From a virus: a stretch of DNA of 44,109 nt. Below are positions 25,716 to 42,430 of the stretch, piece after piece (within the stretch, counting starts at the first letter, position 1; each line of letters begins with the position of its first letter). The stretch lies in IMG/VR virus record IMGVR_UViG_3300047560_001489, positions 1 through 44,109 of that record; one strand, 5' to 3'. Under the pieces are notes generated by a model. It did not search any database. It was not told where the DNA came from and saw nothing but the letters and a program-made list of their open reading frames with translations. A program made the translations under genes and the position numbers.

Positions 25716-26921
25716 ATGAAAAAGCGCAACTACACACAAGACACAGTCAGAAAGCTACAGGGTAGTGTACAGATTGAACACACATTAGCCAAGCGTGGAG
25801 CATATAAACTACGTGAGCTATTAGCAAATGAGCCGTACATCAATACGCTCGGAGCATATAACGGTCAAATGGCCGTACAACACGCTAAGGCGGGGTTGAA
25901 AGCGATTTACTTGTCAGGTTGGCAAGTTGCCGGCGCTAACAATACAGCAAATCAAACATATCCAGATCAATCTTTGTACCCTGTAGATTCTGTACCTCGT
26001 GTAGTTAAAGGCATTAACAATGCTTTCCGTCGCGCTGATCAAATTGAACATAGTGAAGGGAATGTATCTACCGATTATTTCTTGCCCATTGTTGCTGATG
26101 CAGAAGCCGGCTTTGGTGGTGCCTTGAACGCATACGAATTAATGAGTGCTATGATTGAAGCAGGCGCCGCAGGCGTACACTTTGAAGATCAGTTAGCTAG
26201 CGAAAAGAAATGTGGACACTTGGGTGGCAAGGTTCTTGTACCTACCAGCCAAATGATTCGTACACTCAACGCCGCCCGCCTAGCCGCAGATGTTGCCGGT
26301 GTTGACACTGTGATCATGGCACGTACAGATGCAGAAGCCGCTACTCTAATTACTAGCAACCATGATCCATTAGACAAGGACTTTGTAATCAATGAAAGAA
26401 CAGAAGAAGGGTTTTACAAATTTAGAAACGGTATCGATGCTTGCATTGCAAGGGGCTTGGCTTACGCTCCATATGCAGACCTACTATGGTTCGAAACTAG
26501 TACCCCAGACATCAAACAAGCCAAGAAATTTGCAGACGCAATACATGCAGAATTCCCAGATCAGATGTTGGCTTATAACTGCTCTCCGTCGTTTAACTGG
26601 CAAAAATTCTTATCGATAGAAGAATGTGAAACATTCCAACGTGAACTAGGTGAATTAGGCTACAAGTTCCAGTTTATTACCTTAGCAGGTTTCCATAGTG
26701 TTAACCTTGCTACCTTTGAACTAGCAGAAGCATATAAAGCACGTGGCATGGCTGGTTACAGCGAAATGCAACAACGTGAGTTTGAAGCACAGGCTCGCGG
26801 ATTCACAACGGTCAAACACCAACGAGAAGTAGGTGTTGGGTACTTTGACCTTATCAGTACAGCAGTCGGTGCAACCTCTACAGTAGCAAACACACATTCA
26901 ACAGAGGCGGATCAATTTTAA
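25716..26921 (+). CDS. aceA: Isocitrate lyase
   Basis: A 401-aa enzyme that cleaves isocitrate to glyoxylate and succinate, the first step of the glyoxylate shunt. The catalytic loop KKCGHLGG (164-171, nucleophile C166) is intact, as are [12 protein letters not shown] (65-76), [10 protein letters not shown] (126-135), the [10 protein letters not shown] strand, and [12 protein letters not shown] / TLAGFHSVN near the C-terminus. It is slightly shorter than E. coli AceA (434 aa). It has its own strong ribosome binding site (AAGGAG) 12 bases after nrdA. No malate synthase is visible. Its place inside the nrd operon is striking. It was probably taken from a proteobacterial host. Confidence 0.95.
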
Positions 26922-30309: not shown

Positions 30310-30522
30310 ATGCAACAGGGAAAGGTAAAATGGTTCAATAATTCTAAGGGATTTGGATTTATTGTACCGGATGGCGGCGGAGAGGATATATTTGCCCACT
30401 TCAGCCAAATCCAAATGGAAGGTTATAAGACACTAAAAACAAATGCAGTTGTTCAATTTCAAGTAATTGACGGTGCAAACGGAAAACAAGCACAGAATAT
30501 TCAACTAGTAGAAAAAGGCTAA
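30310..30522 (+). CDS. Cold-shock domain protein (CspA-like)
   Basis: A 70-aa single cold-shock domain. RNP1 KGFGFI (13-18) and an RNP2-like DIFAHF (26-31) are intact, and the N-terminal GKVKWFN is canonical. It binds single-stranded RNA or DNA and can act as an RNA chaperone or antiterminator. It has the strongest host-type promoter in this region, so early or host-driven expression is likely. It could help translation of phage mRNAs together with the phage bS21 (inference). Confidence 0.95.
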   Translation: MQQGKVKWFNNSKGFGFIVPDGGGEDIFAHFSQIQMEGYKTLKTNAVVQFQVIDGANGKQAQNIQLVEKG

Positions 30523-30782: not shown

Positions 30783-31175
30783 ATGGCATATTCGAATCAA
30801 GTTATTGACCATTATGAGAACCCACGAAATGTGGGTTCTTTCGCTAAAGATGATAGGTCAGTCGGTACCGGCATGGTTGGTGCACCTGCTTGCGGCGATG
30901 TAATGAAACTACAAATAAAGGTTGACCATGATACAGGTATTATTACAGATGCGAAATTTAAAACGTATGGCTGCGGATCGGCTATCGCAAGCTCGAGCCT
31001 CGTCACAGAATGGGTCAAAGGAAAAACACTTGATGAAGCAGGATCAATTAAAAACAGCCAAATCGCCGAAGAGCTAGCATTGCCTCCGGTTAAAATACAC
31101 TGCTCGATCTTAGCAGAAGATGCCATTAAGGCAGCAGTAGAGGATTATAGAAAAAAACATGATCTCGTTAACTGA
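30783..31175 (+). CDS. iscU: Iron-sulfur cluster scaffold protein IscU
   Basis: A 130-aa protein that assembles [2Fe-2S] clusters. All scaffold residues are present: C37, D39 (APACGD), C64 (YGCGSA), H106 and C107. The HscA-recognition motif LPPVK is at 100-104. Length and sequence are those of a full proteobacterial IscU, close to the betaproteobacterial form. The ribosome binding site AGGAG lies 7 bases upstream. Its 3' end overlaps iscA by 17 bases. No IscS, HscA/HscB, ferredoxin or IscR gene is visible here, so host partners would be needed. Confidence 0.97.
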   Translation: MAYSNQVIDHYENPRNVGSFAKDDRSVGTGMVGAPACGDVMKLQIKVDHDTGIITDAKFKTYGCGSAIASSSLVTEWVKGKTLDEAGSIKNSQIAEELALPPVKIHCSILAEDAIKAAVEDYRKKHDLVN

Positions 31176-31479
31176 ATCAGCTTCTAACAAAATAACCCAG
31201 ACTCTAAAGAAAAGAGGTAGTGGTCTTGGGATTAGAATTGGTGTAAAAACTACTGGTTGCAGTGGACTAGCCTATGTGTTAGAGTATGTAGATTTGCCCA
31301 GCCCAGAGGATCGCTGTGTAGATTGTGGCGACTGCAAAGTATTCATAGATCCAAAGAGTTGTCCTTACCTTCAGGGCATGACCATTGATTACGTAAAGCA
31401 AGGTCTGAACGAAGGATTTGAATTTAGTAATCCTAACGAAAGAGATCGTTGTGGATGTGGGGAGAGTTTTAGAATATGA
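31159..31479 (+). CDS. iscA: A-type Fe-S carrier IscA, with extra cysteines
   Basis: A 106-aa A-type carrier with the three signature cysteines (C34 in TTGCSG; C98 and C100 in DRCGCGESF). Unlike ordinary IscA it carries four additional cysteines, C53, C56 and C59 (CVDCGDC) and C68, where typical IscA has VFEDKGVKVVVDGKSL-type residues. The added CxxCxxC could bind metal or form disulfides. Overlaps iscU and shares ATGA with erpA. It likely passes clusters or iron to target proteins. Confidence 0.93.
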
Positions 31480-31799
31480 TTGATATAACAGAAGCAGCCG
31501 TTAATAAAATTACCGATCTTTTAACAGAAGAAAATAATCCGAATCTTAAACTTCGTACCTTTGTACAGGGCGGCGGATGTTCAGGATTCAGTTATGGTTT
31601 TACATTTGATGAAGAACAGAATGAAGACGACTTCATAATCGAACGATCCGGAATGGCATTACTAGTTGACGCAATGAGTATGCAATATCTTACAGGTTCG
31701 ACAATTGATTATAAAGAGGAGTTAATGGGCAGTAGTTTTACGATAAATAATCCAAATGCTCAAACAACCTGTGGGTGTGGTAGCAGTTTCAGTATATAA
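31476..31799 (+). CDS. erpA: A-type Fe-S carrier ErpA
   Basis: A 107-aa A-type carrier with [11 protein letters not shown] (C35) and TTCGCGSSF (C99, C101), the ErpA-like signature with [20 protein letters not shown]. It delivers clusters to apo-enzymes. Translationally coupled to iscA. The iscU-iscA-erpA order in one overlapping operon suggests joint function during infection. Confidence 0.95.
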
Positions 31800-32607: not shown

Positions 32608-33192
32608 ATGATTGTCTATATTCATGGGGCAAGTGCCACTGCCGCCAGCTTCACACATATAAGGCAGTATGTTAGGGACTATTTCGAAGAACCCGATATC
32701 ATGCTCGAATATCGAAGCGAAAACGGATTTGCTAACAATCTTAAAGATATGCATGGAAAATTAGATGATGCTGAAAGATTATTTTTTATCAGTCATAGTC
32801 TAGGCGGAATATATGCTCTGCATTTAGCTAATCATTATTCTGAAACCACCCGGGGGGGTGTAAGTCTAAGCACACCATACGGCGGAAGTAAAGAAGCAGA
32901 CTTTGCTAGATATTTTTTACCTTTTAATCGTTTAATGAAAGACATAGGGGTTATGAGTGCTCCTATGCGAGAAGCCAGGAGCTTACCTGCACCCCCAAAT
33001 TGGACACAGGTTGTATCTACAGTTGGGCAGAGTCCTTGGATTAAAGACGACAACGACGGAGTAGTTACATTAGAAAGTATGAGATTTAGGGAAGACTTCG
33101 AGCAAATTGAAGTTCCATTAAATCACTACGAGGTTGTAATAAGCGATCGTGTGGTTGATATCATACTTGACAAGATCAAGAAAGTATTCTAA
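32608..33192 (+). CDS. Alpha/beta-hydrolase (lipase/esterase-like)
   Basis: A 194-aa alpha/beta hydrolase. It has an HG oxyanion motif (IHGASAT, residues 5-11), the nucleophile elbow SHSLGG (S64), a likely acid in KDDNDGVV (D147-D150) and catalytic H173 in LNHYEV. The NDGVVT..S arrangement is typical of PGAP1/lipase-like hydrolases. It may act on lipid or acyl esters, complementing the desaturase (speculative). Its stop is followed by a late promoter motif and the tmRNA. Confidence 0.8.
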   Translation: MIVYIHGASATAASFTHIRQYVRDYFEEPDIMLEYRSENGFANNLKDMHGKLDDAERLFFISHSLGGIYALHLANHYSETTRGGVSLSTPYGGSKEADFARYFLPFNRLMKDIGVMSAPMREARSLPAPPNWTQVVSTVGQSPWIKDDNDGVVTLESMRFREDFEQIEVPLNHYEVVISDRVVDIILDKIKKVF

Positions 33193-33200
33193 AATAAATA
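33193..33200 (+). promoter_or_regulatory. Late promoter-like AATAAATA upstream of tmRNA
   Basis: AATAAATA directly after the hydrolase stop, just before the first hairpin of the tmRNA acceptor piece. It matches the late consensus at 7 of 8 positions, suggesting the tmRNA is made late in infection. Confidence 0.5.
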
Positions 33201-33204
33201 CTTG

Positions 33205-33496
33205 TTATTGCTGTATGAAGCAAAGAGAAAAGTGTTCTGGACGCGGGTTCGACTCCCGCCAGGTCCACCATAAGCATGTTCTTTGAGGTCTTGGTCGTTA
33301 CCAGCGTGGCAAAAACGGCGACAGAGTGTGCTTATGATGGGCCTGCCATGGTTTCGACAGGGCAAAGAGTAACAGAGTGGACAGCACAGTAGGCTATGAC
33401 TTTAAATCAAGCAAAATCTATAGACGCAAACGACGATCTATTCGCAATGGCCGCTTGAGGCCTGCTGAGGGTGTAAGCCCAAGAAACAGAACTTAC
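33205..33496 (+). ncRNA. ssrA: Circularly permuted two-piece tmRNA, tag ANDDLFAMAA
   Basis: tmRNA rescues stalled ribosomes and tags the nascent peptide for proteolysis. The 3' (acceptor) half comes first: a small hairpin (33208-33223), P2 strand TGTTCTG (33233-33239), T-arm GCGGG-TTCGACT-CCCGC (33243-33259), acceptor CAGGTCC (33260-33266), A and encoded CCA (33268-33270). A 68-base intervening segment (33271-33338) begins TAAGCA and has TGCTTA near its end, so it closes on itself. The 5' half follows: acceptor GGGCCTG (33339-33345), D-loop GGTTTCGACA, P2 strand CAGGGCA (33358-33364). The 7-bp acceptor stem holds the G3-U70 pair required by alanyl-tRNA synthetase. The tag frame starts with resume codon GCA at 33426 and reads A-N-D-D-L-F-A-M-A-A, then TGA at 33456. 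TAGAC lies before the resume codon, like E. coli TAGTC. Mature ends are estimates. Confidence 0.95.
33426..33458 (+). CDS. tmRNA tag-peptide reading frame (ANDDLFAMAA + stop)
   Basis: Ten codons and a TGA within the tmRNA. The E. coli tag is ANDENYALAA. Here the ClpX-recognised C-terminus LAA is changed to MAA. GGCC / GGCC (33449-33452 with 33459-33462) can form the helix enclosing the stop codon, as usual in tmRNA. Confidence 0.93.
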   Translation, partial: ANDDLFAMAA

Positions 33497-33521
33497 AAAG
33501 GACCTTCGGGTCCTTTCTTTT
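33497..33521 (+). terminator. Rho-independent terminator after tmRNA
   Basis: Stem AAAGGACC / GGTCCTTT closing a TTCG tetraloop, then CTTTT. Confidence 0.92.
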
Positions 33522-33575
33522 GTCCAAATTTTATAAAACATGTAAACGTTCTATAAGGTTATGGCGTTATTATAT

Positions 33576-33597
33576 TATACAGAAATAGTTCTGTATA
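33576..33597 (+). repeat. Perfect 9-bp inverted repeat in the leader of the secreted protein
   Basis: TATACAGAA-ATAG-TTCTGTATA, ending 9 bases before the AAAGGA ribosome binding site of the gene at 33618. An RNA hairpin or an operator-like site. Confidence 0.7.
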
Positions 33598-33617
33598 TTA
33601 ACCTTAAAGGAAACATC

Positions 33618-33821
33618 ATGAAAGTTATCGCAACTCTAATCGCTGGTTTGTTCGCAGTAAGTGCATTTGCCGCTGAACCTGCTAAGAAGGAAGAAAAGAA
33701 GGCTGATGCCAAGCCCGCCGCAAGTGCTCCTGCCACAGCACCAGCCGCACCCGCTAAGGCTGATGCTAAAAGCGCACCCGCTAAAGCCGAAGATAAAAAA
33801 GCCGAAACTCCTAAGAAGTAA
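33618..33821 (+). CDS. Secreted Ala/Lys/Pro-rich small protein (67 aa)
   Basis: The ATG at 33618 (MKVIATLIAGLFAVSAFA) is preferred over an in-frame ATG at 33561 because it has AAAGGA upstream and gives a classic Sec signal peptide. Predicted signal peptidase cleavage is after AFA (residue 18). The mature part is low-complexity A/K/P/E repeat (KADAKPAAS...KAEDKKAETPKK), likely disordered and periplasmic or envelope-bound. This signal peptide style is very common in betaproteobacteria (family experience), which supports host acquisition. Function unknown. Confidence 0.75.
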   Translation: MKVIATLIAGLFAVSAFAAEPAKKEEKKADAKPAASAPATAPAAPAKADAKSAPAKAEDKKAETPKK

Positions 33822-33840
33822 TCCACTTAGGAAGTCATTA

Positions 33841-34032
33841 ATATTAGCAGGCGACGATCCTGGTTCTATTTTAATTGACGATGAAGACATTTATGTTGGG
33901 TATCGAAAACCAGAAATAGTAGACAAACTGAAAGTCGTTGATGTTGATGATGATTTAAACGACCATGTTCGTTTTAGACTTTGGCTAGCCAGACAACTGG
34001 CAATGAAAAAGTATTACGAGACTTGGACATAA
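33841..34032 (+). CDS. Acidic small phage protein without a canonical start codon
   Basis: From about 33838 to TAA 34030-34032 the frame encodes a protein-like, acidic sequence (LAGDDPGSILIDDEDIYVGYRKP ... FRLWLARQLAMKKYYETWT at the end), but no ATG, GTG or TTG occurs in the non-overlapping part. AGGAAG (33829-33834) lies 6 bases before an in-frame ATA (33841), a possible non-canonical start. Alternatively the product arises by +1 frameshifting from the preceding gene, whose low-complexity frame overlaps. The coordinates given assume ATA. A sequence error would also explain it. Confidence 0.4.
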   Translation: MLAGDDPGSILIDDEDIYVGYRKPEIVDKLKVVDVDDDLNDHVRFRLWLARQLAMKKYYETWT

Positions 34033-34059
34033 CCCACAAATATGTGGGTTATTTTTTTT
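34030..34059 (+). terminator. Rho-independent terminator
   Basis: Stem AACCCACA / TGTGGGTT, loop AATA, tail ATTTTTTTT; begins right at the stop codon of the preceding frame. Confidence 0.9.
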
Positions 34060-34073
34060 GGTAAAATTTTTAC

Positions 34074-34102
34074 TTGCGGTATTACCTTATTTCGTGTATA
34101 GT
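34074..34102 (+). promoter_or_regulatory. Sigma70-type promoter
   Basis: TTGCGG (34074-34079), 17-base spacer, TATAGT (34097-34102), 30 bases before ATG 34133, which has CAAGGAAG as ribosome binding site. Confidence 0.6.
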
Positions 34103-34132
34103 TAAGCTATATTAACTAACCAAGGAAGTTCT

Positions 34133-34474
34133 ATGAACGCCGAACAGACGCTTACACAAATCAAACTTCATTGTATCCAGAATTCTGGAGATGAACAAAT
34201 CTGGACCAATAAAGGCACCACCTATCACTGGAATCGGGGCCGCGATACATCTATCGGAATTGTTAATGGTGTGGTCAGAAAGCTAGCAGGTATCGATGCA
34301 AGCGGTAAACAAATTTGGGTAGTTGCTGGCTCCCTCAAGATTAATCAGTACGGAACCATTCTAAGATTTACCGGTCTTCCTAAGAAGTTACAAAAAACAT
34401 TTGAGCCAGTGCATAAGGTTCATGTTACAAACACAGATAATCCTATTGACTTCCCCCAGACAGAAGTTGTATAA
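34133..34474 (+). CDS. Conserved phage protein (113 aa)
   Basis: A 113-aa soluble protein beginning MNAEQTLTQIKLHCIQNSGD, mostly beta (YHWNRGRDTSIGIVNGVVRKLAG, then KQIWVVAGSLKI). No catalytic motif is recognised. It has its own early-type promoter behind a terminator. It overlaps the next small membrane gene by one base (TAATG). Confidence 0.6.
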   Translation: MNAEQTLTQIKLHCIQNSGDEQIWTNKGTTYHWNRGRDTSIGIVNGVVRKLAGIDASGKQIWVVAGSLKINQYGTILRFTGLPKKLQKTFEPVHKVHVTNTDNPIDFPQTEVV

Positions 34475-34563
34475 TGATTTGGTTAATTCCAGTTATACTA
34501 GTATTCAGTGGTCATCTTTTATTGGCCGTTGCAACTTCTTTCATTATCATTCTTACTGACTAA
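34474..34563 (+). CDS. Tiny membrane protein (29 aa)
   Basis: A 29-aa frame, MIWLIPVILVFSGHLLLAVA plus nine residues: one transmembrane helix with almost no loops. The TAATG overlap with the upstream gene and the following ATG 2 bases after its stop support translation. Function unknown, possibly a membrane modulator of lysis or signalling. Confidence 0.5.
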   Translation: MIWLIPVILVFSGHLLLAVATSFIIILTD

Positions 34564-34564
34564 C

Positions 34565-34963
34565 ATGACAATGCATTTAGAAGGCCCGTGGCTCAGCACC
34601 ACCGGCAAGCGCAAAGGTAAAGTTAAATTTCGTAATGCCGAAGAAGCCCGCAAGGCTCGCGAATTAGATGAGTCTTGGAAAGATCTTCAAAAGAAATGGG
34701 GCATCGAGGCCGAAGAGAAAAAACGCAAGCGAGCCCTTTCTGCTCCAGTTATGCTTCCTACACAGACAACAGGAATCTATCGCCGAGATACCGGTCCCCG
34801 AATCCCTAGTCGCAATTCTGCTGACATGACTCCGGCTACTAAGGCCCCTGAAAAAGTTTACACAGGAACAAAGATTATTGGCATTGGTACAATGCACAAG
34901 AGCAATGCTGTTCCTATCTTTAGTGACGACGAAGCTAAAGAAATTAGTAGTATGCGTCGATAA
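34565..34963 (+). CDS. Conserved T4-like phage protein (132 aa)
   Basis: The ATG at 34565 (MTMHLEGPWLSTTGKRKGKVKFRNAEEARKAREL) is chosen; upstream in-frame codons overlap the tiny membrane gene. The N-terminal 60 residues are basic and helical. The GPWLSTTGKRKGK..FR..EEA.KAREL pattern recurs in T4-like cyanophages and pelagiphages. The C-terminal half is probably disordered. Unknown function. Confidence 0.65.
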   Translation: MTMHLEGPWLSTTGKRKGKVKFRNAEEARKARELDESWKDLQKKWGIEAEEKKRKRALSAPVMLPTQTTGIYRRDTGPRIPSRNSADMTPATKAPEKVYTGTKIIGIGTMHKSNAVPIFSDDEAKEISSMRR

Positions 34964-34966
34964 ATA
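34959..34966 (+). promoter_or_regulatory. Late promoter-like GATAAATA
   Basis: GATAAATA overlapping the preceding stop; the next ATG is only 7 bases away, so it may serve downstream genes or be coincidental. Confidence 0.3.
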
Positions 34967-34972
34967 TTTCTT

Positions 34973-36268
34973 ATGCCAGTAACTTTTAATGAAAAATTTA
35001 TAGCCTATCTAGCACTATTCAGTGGATTGTTTATTTCATTTATAGCAGAATACTACAGTATTGTGGGATTTACTGCTATATTTGCCGCCGCCGCCATTCC
35101 CGTTATTATAATGGGTATAGCATTGGGTGTGGGTAAGATCACTGCTACTGTATGGCTCAAACAGAATTGGAGTATATCTCCGTGGACAGTTCGCATATAT
35201 CTACTTACGGCTATTGCAGTATTAATGGCTGTAACCTCATTGGGTATCTTTGGTTTCTTGAGTAAAGCACACAGTGATCAAAGTCTAGTAAGTGGTGACG
35301 TTCAAAGTAAGATTGCAGTCTATGATGAAAAGATTAAAGTAGCAAAGGACAATATCGATGCAAACCGCAAAGCACTTAAACAAATGGATGAGGCGGTGGA
35401 CCAGGTTATGGGTCGAAGCACAGATGAAAAAGGTGCCGACAAAGCCGTGGCCATACGCAGAGGACAATCCAAAGAACGTACTAGACTTCTTGCTGAAATC
35501 CAAGCCGAACAGAAAACAATTACTCAACTTAGTGAAGAACGAGCGCCAATTGCGGCTGAAGTGCGTAAAGTCGAGGCCGAAGTTGGCCCGATAAAATATA
35601 TAGCGGCATTCGTATATGGCGATACAGATTCAACGGTATTAGAAAAGGCAGTTACCTGGGTTATTATATTACTGATTGTAGTATTTGATCCGTTGGCTGT
35701 TATTCTTCTATTAGCAAGCCAAATTAGTTTCCAAAACTTTAGAGATAGAGAACGCTGGGACTTTGAACGTAACCTAGAAGAAGCTGCCGATGCGTTTAAT
35801 GATGTGTTTGCAGACGATCTGGACAATTACCGTCCGGATCCTTATGTAGCAGATGTAGGCGAAAAGCCCACTGCCGAAGAACTTGCGGAGGGTGACAGCC
35901 CATCAGGTACGGAGCCCGACGTAGTCACTCCGGCAACCACTGTCACAGAACATCATCCTGATACACATCCTTATCTCCGCCAAGGATTTAAATTTCCTGA
36001 AAATTACGAGCGTGTTGGGCCCATGGTAGCAAAGCAAGAGATTATAGAACCAGCGGTACAAGCTGACGAACCTCTGTTTGTTCAAAATGAGGAGCAGAAA
36101 GAAAGCGACCTATGGACCAGTACTATTAGCAAAGAAGAATACCAACATCATAGTGCAGAAGAAGTTGACAACGAAATAGATCGTTATGCTACTCTAGTAA
36201 AATCAGGTCAAATGCTAATGTCTGATGTTCCAGAATCTATATTACTAGCAGTTAGAGCAAAGGTATAA
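34973..36268 (+). CDS. Multi-pass membrane protein with coiled coil (431 aa)
   Basis: Four predicted transmembrane helices: residues about 8-26, 31-53, 73-97 (YLLTAIAVLMAVTSLGIFGF) and 228-248 (VIILLIVVFDPLAVILLLAS). A coiled coil (about 105-200) sits between helices 3 and 4, and a long acidic cytoplasmic C-terminal tail follows (about 265-431). This arrangement, with the VFDPLAV motif, is seen in uncharacterised membrane proteins of T4-like marine phages. It starts the block leading to clpX and rpsU. Function unknown. Confidence 0.7.
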   Translation: MPVTFNEKFIAYLALFSGLFISFIAEYYSIVGFTAIFAAAAIPVIIMGIALGVGKITATVWLKQNWSISPWTVRIYLLTAIAVLMAVTSLGIFGFLSKAHSDQSLVSGDVQSKIAVYDEKIKVAKDNIDANRKALKQMDEAVDQVMGRSTDEKGADKAVAIRRGQSKERTRLLAEIQAEQKTITQLSEERAPIAAEVRKVEAEVGPIKYIAAFVYGDTDSTVLEKAVTWVIILLIVVFDPLAVILLLASQISFQNFRDRERWDFERNLEEAADAFNDVFADDLDNYRPDPYVADVGEKPTAEELAEGDSPSGTEPDVVTPATTVTEHHPDTHPYLRQGFKFPENYERVGPMVAKQEIIEPAVQADEPLFVQNEEQKESDLWTSTISKEEYQHHSAEEVDNEIDRYATLVKSGQMLMSDVPESILLAVRAKV

Positions 36269-36270
36269 AA

Positions 36271-36678
36271 TTGACAAATAAACTTACATTAATAACTCCG
36301 CCTGATTTCTTTGAAAATGAAAATTATAGTATAATGTTTATTCATCTATCAGACGACGATCAGGCCAAGGTAAGTAAATGGCTTGCTGAAACTGAATTGA
36401 CTGAACATATCAATATATATTTTTATGATCATGAAATTGAGATACCTTGGCTTTTATATGCGTTGTCTAAGTGTGAGTATAAGTATATAGACTTAGACAG
36501 ACTTAATACTGCCACTGATGCCTTGAGTGGACACATATTAGGAAAAAACGATATTTACTATAAAATTAATGACGAAAACTTGTCGGCAATTTATCATTAT
36601 ATAAATCAGAATAGAATATCATCTGTTGAAAACTTCTTGCAGAAGGCACTAAATGAAAAAATCAGACCATCACTGTGA
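36271..36678 (+). CDS. Conserved phage protein (135 aa), TTG start
   Basis: A 135-aa acidic alpha/beta protein starting at TTG 36271, 2 bases after the previous stop, with AAAGG upstream. The first half resembles a small Rossmann-like or ATPase-accessory pattern (IMFIHLSDDDQAKVSKWLAE), but no nucleotide motif is clear. It overlaps clpX by 26 bases, so coupling to ClpX production is likely; an adaptor role is only a guess. Confidence 0.6.
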   Translation: MTNKLTLITPPDFFENENYSIMFIHLSDDDQAKVSKWLAETELTEHINIYFYDHEIEIPWLLYALSKCEYKYIDLDRLNTATDALSGHILGKNDIYYKINDENLSAIYHYINQNRISSVENFLQKALNEKIRPSL

Positions 36679-37894
36679 TTTTTGTAATAAAAGCAAAGAC
36701 GAAGTTGAGAAACTTATTGTCGGTGATAATGCAGCCATATGTAATGATTGTGTAGATCTTTGTATAGACATACTTAAAGATGAAAAAGTAAAAACATTTC
36801 CTAACGAGAAAAAACTTCTTAATCCTGCACTTATCAAAGAGTACCTTGATGAATACGTAATAGGCCAGGAAGAGGCTAAAATTGCATTAAGTGTTGCTGT
36901 AAGTCAACATTTTAAAAGGATTAATAATCCTAGCAAAGATATTGAGTTAGAAAAAACAAATGTGTTGTTATTAGGTCCTACAGGCTGCGGTAAGACTATG
37001 ATGGCACGTAAAATTGCTCAATATTTAGACCTACCGTTTGCTATTTGCGATGCTACTGGTATTACAGAAGCCGGGTATGTGGGCGATGACGTTGAGAGCA
37101 TTCTTACTCGACTCATAAATGAAGCAGATGGTGACATAGAGAAAGCCAGTCGAGGTGTTGTTTATATTGATGAAATTGATAAAATTTCGAGAAAAGGTGA
37201 AAGTGCTAGTATTACTAGAGACGTAAGTGGAGAAGGCGTCCAGCAAGGTCTTCTAAAAATGATTGAAGGCAGTATTATGCGTGTCCCTAGTACCGGAAAA
37301 AGAAAACATCCCAACGGCGACATCCAAGAAATAGATACCCGGGGGATCCTATTCATTTGTGGTGGTGCATTTGTCGGAATAGATAAAATCATAGGGCAAA
37401 GAACAGGAGCCAAATCAGTAGGTTTCCATGCCAATGTTGAAAATAAAAATGATGATGAGCTTTACAGAAATGTAATAACCAAGGACTTAATCAAATTCGG
37501 TCTTATTCCTGAATTTGTAGGAAGGTTTGGAATTATAACCAACGTAGAAGAATTAAATGAAGACCAAATGGTTCAAATTTTAAAAAATACAAAGAACAGT
37601 ATTGTAGATCAATACAAATACATGTTTGAACTTGACGGAATTAAATTAGAATTCGATAATGATGCGTTAAAAGAAATAGCGTCAAAGGCCAAAGAACTTA
37701 AAACCAACGCAAGGGGACTCAAGAGTATTGTAGAAAAAATTCTACTTCCATACCAATTTGATGCAGTTAACCTTGTTGAAAGAGGGTTAGAATCAATTCG
37801 GATAAGTAAAGATACAATTGATGGCAGACCTGCCGTTATGATTTTCAATAACAATAAAAATGAGCAAAAACAACAAACCACTAATGGGAAATAA
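36653..37894 (+). CDS. clpX: ATP-dependent unfoldase ClpX
   Basis: A 413-aa AAA+ unfoldase. N-terminal zinc domain: C8, C11, C30, C33. Walker A GPTGCGKT (108-115), Walker B VVYIDEID (169-176), pore-1 loop GYVG (141-144), pore-2 RKH (217-219), sensor-2 ARGLKS near residue 354. The ClpP-docking loop is VGF (256-258), replacing E. coli IGF. All unfoldase parts therefore look functional, and the docking loop is kept. Cellular ClpX unfolds substrates such as ssrA-tagged proteins and feeds ClpP. Few phages are known to carry ClpX. It overlaps the genes on both sides (26 and 35 bases), the last being bS21. Confidence 0.97.
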   Translation: MKKSDHHCDFCNKSKDEVEKLIVGDNAAICNDCVDLCIDILKDEKVKTFPNEKKLLNPALIKEYLDEYVIGQEEAKIALSVAVSQHFKRINNPSKDIELEKTNVLLLGPTGCGKTMMARKIAQYLDLPFAICDATGITEAGYVGDDVESILTRLINEADGDIEKASRGVVYIDEIDKISRKGESASITRDVSGEGVQQGLLKMIEGSIMRVPSTGKRKHPNGDIQEIDTRGILFICGGAFVGIDKIIGQRTGAKSVGFHANVENKNDDELYRNVITKDLIKFGLIPEFVGRFGIITNVEELNEDQMVQILKNTKNSIVDQYKYMFELDGIKLEFDNDALKEIASKAKELKTNARGLKSIVEKILLPYQFDAVNLVERGLESIRISKDTIDGRPAVMIFNNNKNEQKQQTTNGK

Positions 37895-38096
37895 AGTAAT
37901 CGTCGGCGACATGCCTATAAACGTTGCGTTAAGAAAATTTAAGCAAAAGGTAGACGATTCGGGCGTTCTAGAAAAGTTAAGAGAAAAGATGTTTTATGAA
38001 AAGCCAACCACTGTTAAAAAAAGAAAAGCAGGCGCGGCAAAGGCCCGTTGGAATAAAAAACTTCGTGAACAACAATTACCCAAAAAAATGTATTGA
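37860..38096 (+). CDS. rpsU: Ribosomal protein bS21
   Basis: A 78-aa protein. Residues 12-58 match bS21: VIVGDMPINVALRKFKQKVDDSGVL followed by the hallmark FYEKPTTVKKRK, then a basic helix and a terminal Tyr as in cellular bS21 (RLY). bS21 sits near the mRNA exit/anti-Shine-Dalgarno region of the 30S subunit, and phage bS21 genes are documented in large environmental phages. It starts inside clpX (35-base overlap). ATG 37884 would give the usual 70-aa length; neither start has a clear ribosome binding site. Confidence 0.93.
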   Translation: MSKNNKPLMGNKVIVGDMPINVALRKFKQKVDDSGVLEKLREKMFYEKPTTVKKRKAGAAKARWNKKLREQQLPKKMY

Positions 38097-38154: not shown

Positions 38155-38391
38155 ATGGAAAAGAAACCTCTAAAAATCACGTTCGCTCCGGGCTGTTTCG
38201 ATTCGTTTGAAGGAACCCAAGAAGAGCTCGAATCATTTCAAGCCGAACTTGTTAAGATGTTTGAAACTGGAGAATTCCTTGAAAAAGCAGAACCAATTGA
38301 CTTGGATGCACTTGACGAAGAAGATCCAGAACATGCGAATTTTATTCGAGAACTAATTCTAGCAGACGTACCTAAGAGGACCCTACAATAA
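38155..38391 (+). CDS. Conserved acidic phage protein (78 aa)
   Basis: A 78-aa acidic protein, MEKKPLKITFAPGCFDSFEG..., with the TFAPGCFDxFEGTQEELESF pattern seen in small T4-like cyanophage proteins. It is mostly helical after residue 20 and shares one base with the exonuclease start (TAATG). Function unknown; early expression from a strong promoter. Confidence 0.7.
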   Translation: MEKKPLKITFAPGCFDSFEGTQEELESFQAELVKMFETGEFLEKAEPIDLDALDEEDPEHANFIRELILADVPKRTLQ

Positions 38392-38918
38392 TGAAGTCCT
38401 TAATGGTTGATATGGAGACCATGGCAGTCTCCCCTAACGCTGTCGTCCTTAGTTTAGGGGCAGTACATTTTAATCCCTATGGTAATGGTTACGGAGATAA
38501 GATCTATTTTAAGATTGATCTAGATGACCAAGATGCGCTAGGCAGAGAAATTGATCCTAACACATTAGATTGGTGGAGCAAGCAAGATCCCAAGATTATG
38601 GAAGAAGCGTTTAGTCCAGACGATCGTATTCCGTTAGTTGAGGCAATGGATCGTTTTCATAAGTTTGCTTGGGGTTGTGATACTTTCTGGAGTCACGGTG
38701 CTACATTCGATTTGGTGATTATCGAAAACATTTATCGCCAATTGGGCAAACCACTTCCTTGGAATTTCTGGCAACTGCGTGATACCCGTACATTGTTTGA
38801 TTTGGGTGTCGATCCAGATATGCCCAAAGATAGCAAACACGATGCCCTGCAGGATGCTATTAGACAAGCCGTGGGTGTCCAAAATTGTTATGCGAAGCTA
38901 AAAATTCGTCCTAAATAA
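38391..38918 (+). CDS. DEDDh 3'-5' exonuclease (DexA-like)
   Basis: A 175-aa RNase-T-fold exonuclease. D7 and E9 (VDMET), D107 (ATFDLVI) and H150/D155 (KHDALQDAI) supply the DEDDh catalytic set. It resembles T4 DexA and Rv2179c-like enzymes, which degrade single-stranded DNA or RNA ends. A terminator nested with a promoter follows its stop. Confidence 0.85.
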   Translation: MKSLMVDMETMAVSPNAVVLSLGAVHFNPYGNGYGDKIYFKIDLDDQDALGREIDPNTLDWWSKQDPKIMEEAFSPDDRIPLVEAMDRFHKFAWGCDTFWSHGATFDLVIIENIYRQLGKPLPWNFWQLRDTRTLFDLGVDPDMPKDSKHDALQDAIRQAVGVQNCYAKLKIRPK

Positions 38919-38998: not shown

Positions 38999-39175
38999 AT
39001 GGACAAATCTGTAGAATTATACTGCACTAAAGATGATGATACTGGAGAATGGTTAGTTTGGTTTCCGCATCCTTTAGGGGGAATGGATGTTATCGGAACA
39101 TTTGATAATGAGTCTGACGCACGCCAGTTCTGGCAAGACCAAATTGATACAGCGGATTTTAACGATGAAGAATAA
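38999..39175 (+). CDS. Small acidic phage protein (58 aa)
   Basis: A 58-aa protein, MDKSVELYCTKDDDTGEWLV..., with AAAGGAG 7 bases upstream. Pattern: beta strand, Trp-rich turn, strand, short helix (ARQFWQDQID). Its end overlaps the helicase start by 11 bases. A role as partner or regulator of the helicase/methyltransferase set is possible from context only. Confidence 0.65.
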   Translation: MDKSVELYCTKDDDTGEWLVWFPHPLGGMDVIGTFDNESDARQFWQDQIDTADFNDEE

Positions 39176-41267
39176 TACAAATACCATTTACGCATACAGC
39201 ACCGAAACCTATCAGAAATATAGAGGTTGGATTAAATGCGGACAAACCCAACAACTTGCTGCCGATCGAGTTGCTCAACAAGATAGCACCAGCAACCCAG
39301 AGCCACTAGTTATTCTAAAAACCTGGGAGGTCCCTGACTGGATCAGCGACCACACTATTCATGCTGAATTAGAAAAAATGGGTATTCTCCGGGTCAGAGA
39401 AGACAAAGTTCGAGAATGGTTTCAGTGTACTGTAGATCAAATATCATCTGCAATTAATAATATTATTCATGGAGTTAGTCGTCCTAATTCATTCCTAATG
39501 CGTGACGAACAGAAAGAATGTCACGACAAGGTAGTTGCACACTTTAGCAACGGCGGCGAGAAGTTCTTAATTAATGCTAAAATGAGATTTGGTAAGACCT
39601 TTGTTTCTTACCAAATTATGAAATCGCTGAAACTGAAACGAGTTCTAGTTATTACATATAAACCAGCAGTTGATGCAAGTTGGCGAGAGGATATGGAAAC
39701 CCACGTCGACTTTGAAAATTGGAAATATGTAAATGCAAAAGAATTTAACGCATCTAATCCAATTAAATTAGAGGGCAATACTGTAGAAGTGCTGTTCACT
39801 TCTTTCCAAGATTTTAACGAATTCAATAAGCCCAAGTGGCAAATTGCTAAAAACTATCATTATGACCTAGTAGTCATTGATGAGAGTCATTATGGTTCTA
39901 AAACTGAAAGAGCACAAGAAAGCCTTTCTCAATTAACCTATGACAGAATTTTATCTGTAAGTGGCACACCTCTGAAAGCTCTCATGAGTGGAGAATTTCT
40001 TGAAGAAGAAATTTATACTTGGGGTTATGCCGATGAGCAGGCTAAACGTAAGCTAGAGCAAACTGCTAATTGGCAGACTGAGGTTTATCGTTGGTTGCCA
40101 GTTATGAAGTTTCATACCTTTGAAGTTAGCGAAGAGGCAAAGAAATTAACTTCGTGTTATAGTGACGAAGAAGGTTTCACTATGACTAAGATGTTCGGTA
40201 GTAAGAATGGCGAAACATTTAACGATGAGAGTGCTGTAAAGTTATTTTTAGATCAAGTGTTTGGCATTGGTGTGAAAAAAGACCACAGTCCCGTTCGTGT
40301 TCATGCAGTAGATCATATGCTGTTTGTTATGCCTCCTAATGTTAAATCAGCAACGGCAATGAGTGCATTGCTAGAGAAACGTGTTGGGGAAGATTATAAG
40401 ATTATCAATGTTGCAGGAGATAATGTAACCAAACTTGAAGAAGTTAAAAATAGTATCCGTCGAAACCAGAAAAGTATTACAGTCACCTGCGGTCGTTTCA
40501 ATACTGGTGTTACTGTTCCTGAATGGGATATGGTTATGATGCTAGACGACACTCGTGCTCCGGAAACATATTTCCAAACAATTTTCCGATGCCAAAGCCC
40601 AGACAAGAAGCGGGCCAAGGAACTGTGTAGCGTTATTGATTTTAATCCTCAACGTTGTCTGGAGATGATTTATGAATTTGCAGACATTACTGCTAAGAAG
40701 AGCCAAAGCACACAAGAGGCCATTAGAGACTTTTTAGAATTTGCTCCTGTCTTAGATCACAGCGGTAATAAACCTAAAGAAGTTGATGTAAATCTTGTGT
40801 TAAACATGATGGCAGAAACTGGCGGCTATGCAGAGCGTTTCGGGTCTAGCTTTATGCTGAACTGGTCTAAGCTAGATGATGTTGCTAATAAATTCTTTGG
40901 AATTGATTCGGAATCTTCTACAGGCATTAATTCTAATGTTGCAGATAACGGACTCAACAAAGGCAAGAACTATGCACCCAGCGAGAAGAACAAACAAAAG
41001 TCTGAAAAAGATGTAGATCTGCAGGCTTTTAAGGAGCTCAGAGAGCGTGTTATTACTATGATGCGGCGGCTTCCGACTTATCTATTTCTTGAGTCATCAA
41101 AGATAGATAACGTTGAAGATATTATTACAGCAAACAATGACGATCTTTTTAAGGAAACTGTAGGAATTTCAATAAATGATTTTAACGATCTGTGTTCTGG
41201 GTTTATTAAAACAGAAAGACTAGACCGTGCGATCATGGCCTATAATCAAATTGATTCAATTGCATGA
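39165..41267 (+). CDS. GIY-YIG/T5orf172 - SF2 helicase fusion (restriction-enzyme-like)
   Basis: A 700-aa protein from ATG 39165 (an in-frame ATG at 39087 would run through the upstream gene). Residues 8-97 form a T5orf172/GIY-YIG-type nuclease domain (IYAYS...YRGWIKCGQT...DRV..H..L...REWF). Residues 112-600 form an SF2/type III restriction-type helicase: phosphate-binding AKMRFGKT (138-145), DESH (239-242), SGTP (266-269), and a helicase C region with FNTGVTVPEWD and an arginine finger-like FRCQS. It shares ATGA with the following N6-adenine methyltransferase. The combination looks like a nuclease-translocase plus methylase, as in restriction-modification or DNA-modification systems. Confidence 0.8.
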   Translation: MKNNTNTIYAYSTETYQKYRGWIKCGQTQQLAADRVAQQDSTSNPEPLVILKTWEVPDWISDHTIHAELEKMGILRVREDKVREWFQCTVDQISSAINNIIHGVSRPNSFLMRDEQKECHDKVVAHFSNGGEKFLINAKMRFGKTFVSYQIMKSLKLKRVLVITYKPAVDASWREDMETHVDFENWKYVNAKEFNASNPIKLEGNTVEVLFTSFQDFNEFNKPKWQIAKNYHYDLVVIDESHYGSKTERAQESLSQLTYDRILSVSGTPLKALMSGEFLEEEIYTWGYADEQAKRKLEQTANWQTEVYRWLPVMKFHTFEVSEEAKKLTSCYSDEEGFTMTKMFGSKNGETFNDESAVKLFLDQVFGIGVKKDHSPVRVHAVDHMLFVMPPNVKSATAMSALLEKRVGEDYKIINVAGDNVTKLEEVKNSIRRNQKSITVTCGRFNTGVTVPEWDMVMMLDDTRAPETYFQTIFRCQSPDKKRAKELCSVIDFNPQRCLEMIYEFADITAKKSQSTQEAIRDFLEFAPVLDHSGNKPKEVDVNLVLNMMAETGGYAERFGSSFMLNWSKLDDVANKFFGIDSESSTGINSNVADNGLNKGKNYAPSEKNKQKSEKDVDLQAFKELRERVITMMRRLPTYLFLESSKIDNVEDIITANNDDLFKETVGISINDFNDLCSGFIKTERLDRAIMAYNQIDSIA

Positions 41268-42430
41268 ACATTTATAAAATTATAAAAAAGATTAGTCTGT
41301 TGCACAGTTCTAATACTGAAACGCCAACTGATTTCGAGTTAACTAAATTAATAATAGATCAACTCGACGTAGACTGGTCAAACCCAAAGCTGACTATATT
41401 AGACCCCTGCTGTGGCCGAGGCACCTTCCTGTTAGCCGTCGCCGATAAATTAGAAAAGGCAGGACACAAGCGCAAACACATTGTTGAAAAAATGTTGTTT
41501 GGTGTTGATAAGAGTCGTGTTCAGTCTCTAATTGCCGCCAAAGCATTGTCAATGTATTATCCCGGGAAATTAAATATAGAAACAGCAGATGCACTTACAA
41601 AGGAATGGAAAATGAAATTTGATGTAGTAGTAGGGAACCCTCCCTTCCAGAGCACAGAGGACGGAAGTAAAAGAAAAAAAATGTGGGTGCAGTTTGCCGA
41701 GAAAGCGATTGACATGGGCGACTACACTGCTCTAGTAACCCCTACAGCGTGGCAGAAAGATAATGCCAAATACTTTAAGGATATTTCTAAAAAGATTAAA
41801 AGCCATCTGGTAGCCTACGGTGACGCTAACAGTCATTTTACTGTAGGCGAAGATATTGGCTACTGGGTTGTAGATAAATCCACAACAAGTCCTGTTACAG
41901 TTATTGATAATAACCCGTGTTCCCCTATCTACAACAAGATGTTAAGAAAGGGCGATCGCTGGCATTATAGAGATTTCCAACAGCCACATTCGGATATTGA
42001 TAAAATTGTATTTCCTTCTAGTCCCACAGATGACTTTGTTGTTCCTATTTTCTGGACAGCTAAACAGGTTCGATACTGCCGATCAATAGATGTAAAATAT
42101 TCTGGTTGGAAAGTGATTGTTAATAATTCCGGGCATTTTTATAGTGCCGATGATCCGGACAAATATTCTCGAATCGATAATTCTATGACTGTAGGATTAG
42201 GAGCGTGGGGCATTAAAGTTAAATCTGAAAAAGAGGGTAAAAATGTTCTTAGTTGGGTCCGTAGTAAATTATACAGAGTAGTAGTTGAACAGATGAAAAC
42301 TGGAGGGTTTAATAATCCATTTATTGAACTAGAGAGTTTAGGTGCAGGTAAGCTATGGACAGATGGTGACATCTACAAGCATTTTAAATTAACCGACGAC
42401 GAAATCAAATACATAGAATCAAATGCTTGA
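41264..42430 (+). CDS. N6-adenine DNA methyltransferase
   Basis: A 388-aa class I MTase. Motif I DPCCGRGTF (47-55), catalytic motif IV NPPF (125-128), and Eco57I-like continuation (MWVQFAEKAIDMGDYTALVTPTAW). A C-terminal half (about 200-388) likely recognises DNA. ATGA-coupled to the helicase gene; its 3' end overlaps the next gene by 8 bases. It probably protects phage DNA from, or works with, the helicase/nuclease. Confidence 0.88.
   Translation: MNIYKIIKKISLLHSSNTETPTDFELTKLIIDQLDVDWSNPKLTILDPCCGRGTFLLAVADKLEKAGHKRKHIVEKMLFGVDKSRVQSLIAAKALSMYYPGKLNIETADALTKEWKMKFDVVVGNPPFQSTEDGSKRKKMWVQFAEKAIDMGDYTALVTPTAWQKDNAKYFKDISKKIKSHLVAYGDANSHFTVGEDIGYWVVDKSTTSPVTVIDNNPCSPIYNKMLRKGDRWHYRDFQQPHSDIDKIVFPSSPTDDFVVPIFWTAKQVRYCRSIDVKYSGWKVIVNNSGHFYSADDPDKYSRIDNSMTVGLGAWGIKVKSEKEGKNVLSWVRSKLYRVVVEQMKTGGFNNPFIELESLGAGKLWTDGDIYKHFKLTDDEIKYIESNA

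Follow-up and report, generated by a model that had tools for sequence, protein, structure and literature searches.

The locus and the question it raises

Can a phage bring its own linked genes for rescuing stalled ribosomes, for unfolding tagged proteins and for altering the 30S subunit, and do such genes act as one programme? The question is raised by the virus record IMGVR_UViG_3300047560_001489, a linear virus fragment of 44,109 bases that was analysed over its whole length (the window). A first-pass annotation had placed a transfer-messenger RNA (tmRNA) gene, ssrA (33,205-33,523), a clpX gene (36,653-37,894) and an rpsU gene for ribosomal protein bS21 (ending at 38,096) within a short block, and had read them as a translation and proteolysis kit. 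Covariance models, Pfam and NCBIfam locate all three genes at these positions and show them to be genuine and intact. The tmRNA gene is of the two-piece, permuted form, a point that the annotation had missed.

33167..33195, + strand: putative sigma70-type promoter of the tmRNA, TTGACA - 17 nt - TAAAAT, matching 11/12 consensus positions as read from the sequence
33205..33270, + strand: tmRNA 3' (acceptor) piece, T-arm GCGGG-TTCGACT-CCCGC, from the Rfam alignments RF04321 and RF01850 with stem and covariation counts
33271..33338, + strand: 68-nt intervening segment (IVS) between the two tmRNA pieces, a hairpin
33339..33496, + strand: tmRNA 5' (coding) piece, with acceptor strand GGGCCTG, G3-U70 kept, D region and tag region
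33426..33458, + strand: tag reading frame, ANDDLFAMAA + TGA, from ARAGORN and tag comparison
33497..33523, + strand: intrinsic terminator, AAAGGACC-TTCG-GGTCCTTT-CTTTTG, a perfect TTCG-loop hairpin
36653..37894, + strand: ClpX, full length, 413 aa, with Zn C4, Walker A/B, GYVG, RKH, VGF ClpP loop, Arg finger and sensor 2
37884..38096, + strand: bS21, 70 aa, overlapping the clpX stop; alternative in-frame ATG at 37860

A permuted tmRNA, a complete ClpX and an overlapping bS21

ARAGORN places a permuted tmRNA, whose tag reads ANDDLFAMAA, at 33178-33549, and the RNA is identified as a beta-type permuted tmRNA by scores that exceed both curated covariance-model thresholds in Rfam (beta_tmRNA RF01850, 134.9 bits, E 3.7e-41, cut-off 84; tmRNA_permuted RF04321, 132.8 bits, gathering score 47). 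Within the gene the acceptor piece precedes the coding piece and ends in CAGGTCC-ACCA (33260-33270), CCA being encoded; with GGGCCTG of the coding piece it gives a tRNA-Ala-like acceptor that carries G3-U70. The tag has a hydrophobic-Ala-Ala end followed directly by a stop. When 25 distinct tRNA-like domains were compared, acceptor pairs 4-6 and T-stem pairs 1-4 were found to vary, nearly always as matched pairs, and G3-U70 was retained in 24/25 distinct phage RNAs, the exception being A-U. A perfect hairpin and T-run terminator follows 26/29 distinct relative tmRNAs, and promoter-like scores of at least 10 occur in 21% of the distinct relatives as against 4.3% of random pieces.

The window IVS (33271-33338) is virtually identical to that of one relative (L021), yet tag and acceptor stem differ between the two, which suggests that parts of the tmRNA have been exchanged between phages. 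Some relatives (L005, L014, L012, L024, L027, L050, L064 and L067) have a non-canonical T-loop, GGCAG(T/A)G rather than TTCGANY, and mostly also an altered D region, GGATCGATT in place of TTTCGACAGGG. The IVSs of L049, L057 and L067 contain a piece resembling a tRNA T-arm, e.g. GTGGTTCGATTCCAC.

ClpX of the window comprises the Pfam domains zf-C4_ClpX, AAA_2 and D2-small and scores 535 bits with the NCBIfam ClpX equivalog (cut-off 359). A scan of viral contigs with this protein returned 80 loci that are 62-84% identical to it, making 81 with the window. Across the 81 aligned phage ClpX proteins the four zinc cysteines, the Walker A Lys, the Walker B Asp-Glu, the GYVG pore loop, the Arg finger and the sensor-2 Arg are invariant; the ClpP-docking loop [IVM]GF is present in all 81, as VGF in the window, and the His of RKH is kept in 74. 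bS21 is recognized by Pfam (PF01165, 1.6e-13) and by the TIGR00030 equivalog (53.4, cut-off 28.95). The ATG at 37884 is the likelier start and yields a protein of 70 aa, which lines up with E. coli bS21 in length; the ATG at 37860 provides an in-frame extension. Both starts overlap the end of clpX, and because of this overlap bS21 is probably translationally coupled to clpX.

Conservation of the set in related phages

Conserved co-occurrence of ssrA, clpX and rpsU in related phages had been set beforehand as the test of the kit reading, and it was strongly upheld when gene content was counted over the 50 longest contigs with a related clpX. bS21 is encoded in 49/50, and in 48 of these 49 the S21 domain begins 1-58 nt past the clpX stop. 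A permuted tmRNA above threshold is found in 38/50, always upstream of clpX and on the same strand (38/38), at a distance of 2.9-17.7 kb; as a background scale, tmRNA of any kind was reported in 402 of 18,146 phage genomes (PMC9004378). clpX and rpsU form a tight overlapping pair, and the tmRNA is the loosest member of the set. The pair belongs to a longer block with the gene order h151-TM431-h135-clpX-rpsU-exoribonuclease, which is preserved in about 70-79 of the 81 loci.

Degradation tags and a putative host among freshwater bacteria

The 39 phage loci from which a tag could be read gave 27 distinct tags of 10-13 residues, of which 20 end in LAA, 4 in MAA and 1 each in VAA, IAA and ANA. The C-terminal Ala-Ala is kept in 26/27; the tag of L038, ANDDTFLLAANA, is the one ending in ANA. 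By comparison, 30 Burkholderiales genomes with a one-piece tmRNA have 8 tags, all of 10 residues, 29/30 ending in ALAA and most reading ANDERFALAA. The phage tags are more varied than those of the sampled Burkholderiales. Permuted tmRNAs above the beta-model cut-off were found in 12/300 sampled Burkholderiales genomes, with tags such as ANDERFAIAA and ANDENFAMAA; the latter, from a bacterial permuted tmRNA, rules out the -MAA end as a phage hallmark. Tag type showed no clear pattern with ClpX loop variants on the ClpX tree.

The comparison with Burkholderiales rests on two observations, from which we infer a Burkholderiales-like host at order level only. The IscU protein of the window is up to 87% identical to Comamonadaceae and Burkholderia proteins, and homologs of h151 are found in Acidovorax and Delftia phages. 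IscU identities are mostly 78-89% across the sampled order, and the protein was for this reason discarded as a more precise host marker. If the host does belong to the Burkholderiales, many candidate hosts use a one-piece tmRNA and the phage would bring in a different architecture.

A proposed programme and its rivals

We consider it fairly probable that a large phage of Burkholderiales-like hosts carries here a conserved proteostasis and translation module. The two-piece tmRNA seems to form a transcription unit with a promoter and a terminator of its own. Charged with alanine, as G3-U70 suggests, it would act with host SmpB to rescue stalled ribosomes and to add the phage tag ANDDLFAMAA. The phage ClpX, complete and presumably expressed from one operon with the bS21 gene behind it, would unfold tagged and other substrates and hand them to ClpP, provided either by a distant phage locus, as in larger relatives, or by the host; destruction of the tag is suggested by its Ala-Ala end together with the conservation of ClpX. 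bS21 would enter host 30S subunits, as the bS21 of HTVC008M is reported to do in E. coli (cited in PMC9723584). The joint function originally proposed, in which phage mRNAs would be favoured, ribosomes recycled and amino acids recovered, is plausible; that the three parts serve one programme is likewise something we infer.

The window had been described as lacking SmpB and ClpP, and this holds: SmpB was not found in the record and tblastn gave no ClpP-like sequence. Since the record is a 44 kb fragment, the missing genes cannot show absence from the phage. For ClpP the gap is uninformative, because the protein is encoded in 7/50 relatives, including all three contigs longer than 200 kb, and lies 27-101 kb downstream of clpX in 7/7, whereas the window ends 6.2 kb after clpX. 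Three of these phage ClpP proteins, checked by script, keep the Ser-His-Asp motifs, and three others look alike by eye.

Several observations weigh against the proposed programme. SmpB was detected in 0/50 relatives and not in the window by a search that did detect the control genomes, the viral records being fragments. Because none of the 50 relatives has the gene, SmpB must presumably come from the host, and the kit is not self-contained; co-occurrence, the invariant docking loop and ClpP in the longest relatives support the kit reading in its other parts. Much of the co-occurrence reflects common descent of one phage lineage, so that the counts are not independent events. The tmRNA is not adjacent to clpX and is missing from 7 of the 44 contigs that extend at least 10 kb upstream of clpX. 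Finally, in the Pseudomonas jumbo phages PA5oct, Paride, 30-3 and others (11 records) rpsU overlaps the end of clpX, and no tmRNA was detected in phage 30-3. These Wroclawvirus members (PA5oct/Paride/30-3) share with the window a co-oriented rpsU that overlaps clpX, but their ClpX is only 42% identical and h135 was not found in them.

The last two observations bear directly on the main rival, namely that there are two independent modules: clpX-rpsU, with h135, would be one ancestral operon with initiation and either phage replication, assembly or host proteins as its targets, and the tmRNA a separate mobile RNA gene that lies in the same region by chance. The nearly invariant clpX-rpsU overlap, which extends to PA5oct-like phages without a detected tmRNA, the variable distance of the tmRNA and the apparent swapping of its parts between phages are all consistent with this idea. 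Against it, the tmRNA is present in 37 of the 44 informative contigs, always co-oriented and upstream, far above the phage background, and the tags retain the ClpX-type Ala-Ala end. We regard two independent modules as possible but rather unlikely.

The phage tmRNA might alternatively be an interfering RNA that competes for host SmpB, alanyl-tRNA synthetase or EF-Tu and alters the fate of tagged host proteins, with no rescue for the phage. Such a role would fit the lack of a phage SmpB and the difference between the phage tags and the near-uniform ANDERFALAA of one-piece tmRNAs in sampled Burkholderiales; a precedent is the tag-less tmRNA of phage DS6A, which inhibits the endogenous tmRNA in E. 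coli (PMC11915505). However, the tag frame, G3-U70, CCA and the terminator are all retained, and pure interference would need none of them, which makes this explanation improbable.

Protein genes nested in phage ssrA

The IVSs of the relatives measure 27-221 nt, and five of them (L020, L050, L061, L064 and L069) resemble open reading frame (ORF) cassettes; the IVS of the window (33271-33338), searched for a Shine-Dalgarno (SD) sequence with an ORF, has no such cassette. Scans with IVS terminal-repeat patterns gave 62 distinct IVSs of 56-486 nt; a 14-base repeat pattern used alone proved too unspecific. ORFs occur in 23/32 IVS protein clusters. They start 12-23 nt into the IVS, usually directly after an AAGGA-type SD sequence in the 5' repeat, and end either at a TGA within the 3' repeat (GTT TCT TTA TGA T, followed by GGG of the coding piece, with the C-terminus VSL) or at a point 12-13 nt short of the repeat end.

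L389, 213-464: nested IVS protein gene, thioredoxin with WCGPC (Pfam 4.1e-21)
L346, 5958-6425: nested IVS protein gene, homing endonuclease (PHROG 655, 6.7e-15)
L390, 538-903: nested IVS protein gene
L421, 2176-2574: nested IVS protein gene
L400, 1429-1620: nested IVS protein gene
L061, L069 and others: nested IVS protein genes, like those above with SD in the 5' repeat and stop in the 3' repeat

Among the ORF-bearing clusters with IVSs of at least 130 nt, the +1 and +2 frames hold 106 and 160 stops against 0 in the ORF frame, where the zero is so by construction and the 106 and 160 are not. pN/pS is 0.21 in a family of 123-aa proteins and 0.18 in one of 64-aa proteins; two further families, whose sequences have hardly diverged, give values near 1. 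In 6/6 loci tested Rfam recognizes the whole composite gene as a permuted tmRNA (L389, 136 bits over 512 nt). The two IVS repeats can pair over a median of 12 bp, a figure that is partly selected because the repeats belonged to the search pattern, and such pairing would bury the ribosome-binding site.

Besides thioredoxin and homing nuclease, the cargo includes small membrane peptides. The 123-aa nested protein gave an AlphaFold2 model with a predicted local distance difference test (pLDDT) score of 64, too poor for structure search. The thioredoxin has free-standing counterparts in sister phages (L510-L515) that are 87-89% identical to the nested protein and nearly all end in KVK, with an nrdA-like 3' end before the gene and, in two cases, an nrdB-like start after it. 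In L507-L509 the thioredoxin lies inside the tmRNA gene and ends in KVSL, and in L516 it lies inside another tmRNA. Judged from these arrangements, thioredoxin was apparently captured into the IVS from the nrd locus.

It seems to us slightly better than an even chance that phage permuted ssrA genes are composite genes, in which the IVS would accommodate interchangeable protein genes as cargo, each with its ribosome-binding site and stop in paired terminal repeats; there could be mutual regulation between tmRNA processing and translation of the cargo, and the clpX-rpsU phages would diversify the tag beyond that of their hosts. A 2025 tmRNA database paper mentions a tRNA in one IVS and a repeat in another, and protein genes in IVSs are not named in the available part of that paper (PMC11915505); no description of them was found in the open-access papers searched. 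The nearest likeness, treated in the same paper, is to bacterial tmRNA genes whose group I introns carry homing endonucleases, protein genes being nested within ssrA there too. Those ORFs lie in self-splicing introns of the T-loop, whereas the phage ORFs occupy the IVS of a permuted gene and have SD and stop in its terminal repeats.

The cargo raises a further explanation for the phages that bear it, in which ssrA would be kept partly as a protected platform for the IVS gene and rescue would be secondary. The ORF-bearing clusters, the apparent capture of thioredoxin and the homing endonuclease in one IVS would agree with this, but many phage tmRNAs, that of the window included, have short IVSs without an ORF, and we think a platform role quite improbable, more so than interference. 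That the three genes are ordinary passengers taken from a host without selected function, as their cellular homologs might suggest, is hardly credible given the motif invariance of 81 ClpX proteins, the stem covariation and the conserved block order.

Comparison with other phage lineages

The individual genes are already known in jumbo phages; what is new is how consistently they are linked, how diverse the tags are and, most of all, that genes are nested in IVSs. Agrobacterium phage Atu_ph07 and Sinorhizobium phages Phosso and AP-J-162 resemble the relatives in having clpX, clpP and S21 (PMC11242549), and Phosso has a permuted tmRNA as well; its gene set speaks for the proposed module, as does the clpX-rpsU overlap in the cultivated PA5oct-like phages. 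They differ from the window in that the gene for translation initiation factor IF-3 takes the place of S21 after clpX, as seen in Atu_ph07 and Phosso, and in a ClpX that is about 50% identical. With clpX paired to rpsU in the present group and in PA5oct-like phages, and to IF-3 in Atu_ph07/Phosso, a clpX plus translation-initiation gene recurs in three jumbo-phage lineages.

Methylophilales phage Melnitz and pelagimyophages are likewise aquatic phages with a permuted two-piece ssrA, for which ribosome rescue or recycling has been proposed (PMC9004378). The Melnitz tmRNA is alpha-type, is under a glutamine riboswitch and lies beside a transcription coactivator; that of the window is beta-type, has its own promoter-like site and terminator and occurs in a phage group with a clpX-rpsU operon. 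The same gene classes are described for huge phages with tmRNA, SmpB and rpS21 (PMC7162821) and for Bacteroidetes phages with bS21 (PMC9723584), with Clp proteases within ten genes of bS21. Unlike rpsU of the window, the Bacteroidetes-phage bS21 genes are there placed among structural genes on the reverse strand. In the parts of the two papers that were consulted we found no mention of clpX-rpsU-tmRNA linkage, tag variation or IVS genes. The top GenBank 'phage' ClpX matches, e.g. that of Acinetobacter phage MD-2021a, where tig-clpP-clpX adjoins a TonB receptor, look bacterial and were left out.

Neighbouring and other genes of the window

30310..30522, + strand: CspA-like cold-shock protein, Pfam E 1.5e-26; upstream and less conserved, 23/81 loci
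34508..34963, + strand: h151, conserved protein (PHROG 27048), first gene of the conserved block; 77/81 loci
34973..36268, + strand: TM431, predicted to be a membrane/coiled-coil protein, its DUF4407 match being weak and under the cut-off; 75/81 loci
36271..36678, + strand: h135, 135 aa, overlapping the 5' end of clpX; 79/81 loci
38391..38918, + strand: Rv2179c-like 3'-5' exoribonuclease, the usual next conserved gene, Pfam 2.6e-36; 70/81 loci

The CspA-like protein that the first-pass annotation had seen upstream is thus borne out by its cold-shock domain. h135 is predicted to have a nucleoside-deoxyribosyltransferase-like fold (AlphaFold2 pLDDT 93; structure match 4mcj, E 8.4e-4, template-modelling score about 0.6), and a search of the GenBank phages gave no homolog at the E-value applied. 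It was also considered as an SspB-type ClpX adaptor; this was rejected since the predicted fold matches nucleoside deoxyribosyltransferases and SspB was not among the matches listed.

Elsewhere in the window, a phage isocitrate lyase (25716-26921) lies between nrdA and nrdB; it scores 682 bits with the NCBIfam equivalog, and its sequence shows a KKCGH motif. Of the 80 ClpX relatives, L023 alone showed a homolog. IscU (equivalog), an IscA-like protein and ErpA (equivalog) follow in series at 30783-31799 as Fe-S cluster assembly genes, which are present in about 15/80 relatives. At 39087-42430 a helicase with T5orf172 and ResIII domains is followed by an Eco57I/N6-type DNA methylase, forming a restriction-modification-like pair, and at 1995-2705 there is a fatty acid desaturase-like protein (Pfam 1.4e-15).

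Implications

Ribosome rescue and regulated proteolysis are usually seen as host housekeeping. A phage lineage with its own tmRNA and tag, ClpX and bS21, and with ClpP in its larger members, makes phage reprogramming of host translation quality control directly testable, and PA5oct/Paride-type phages with clpX-rpsU are already in culture. If true, the genes nested in IVSs would be a gene-in-gene arrangement with many cargo families, of which no description was found in the open-access papers searched.

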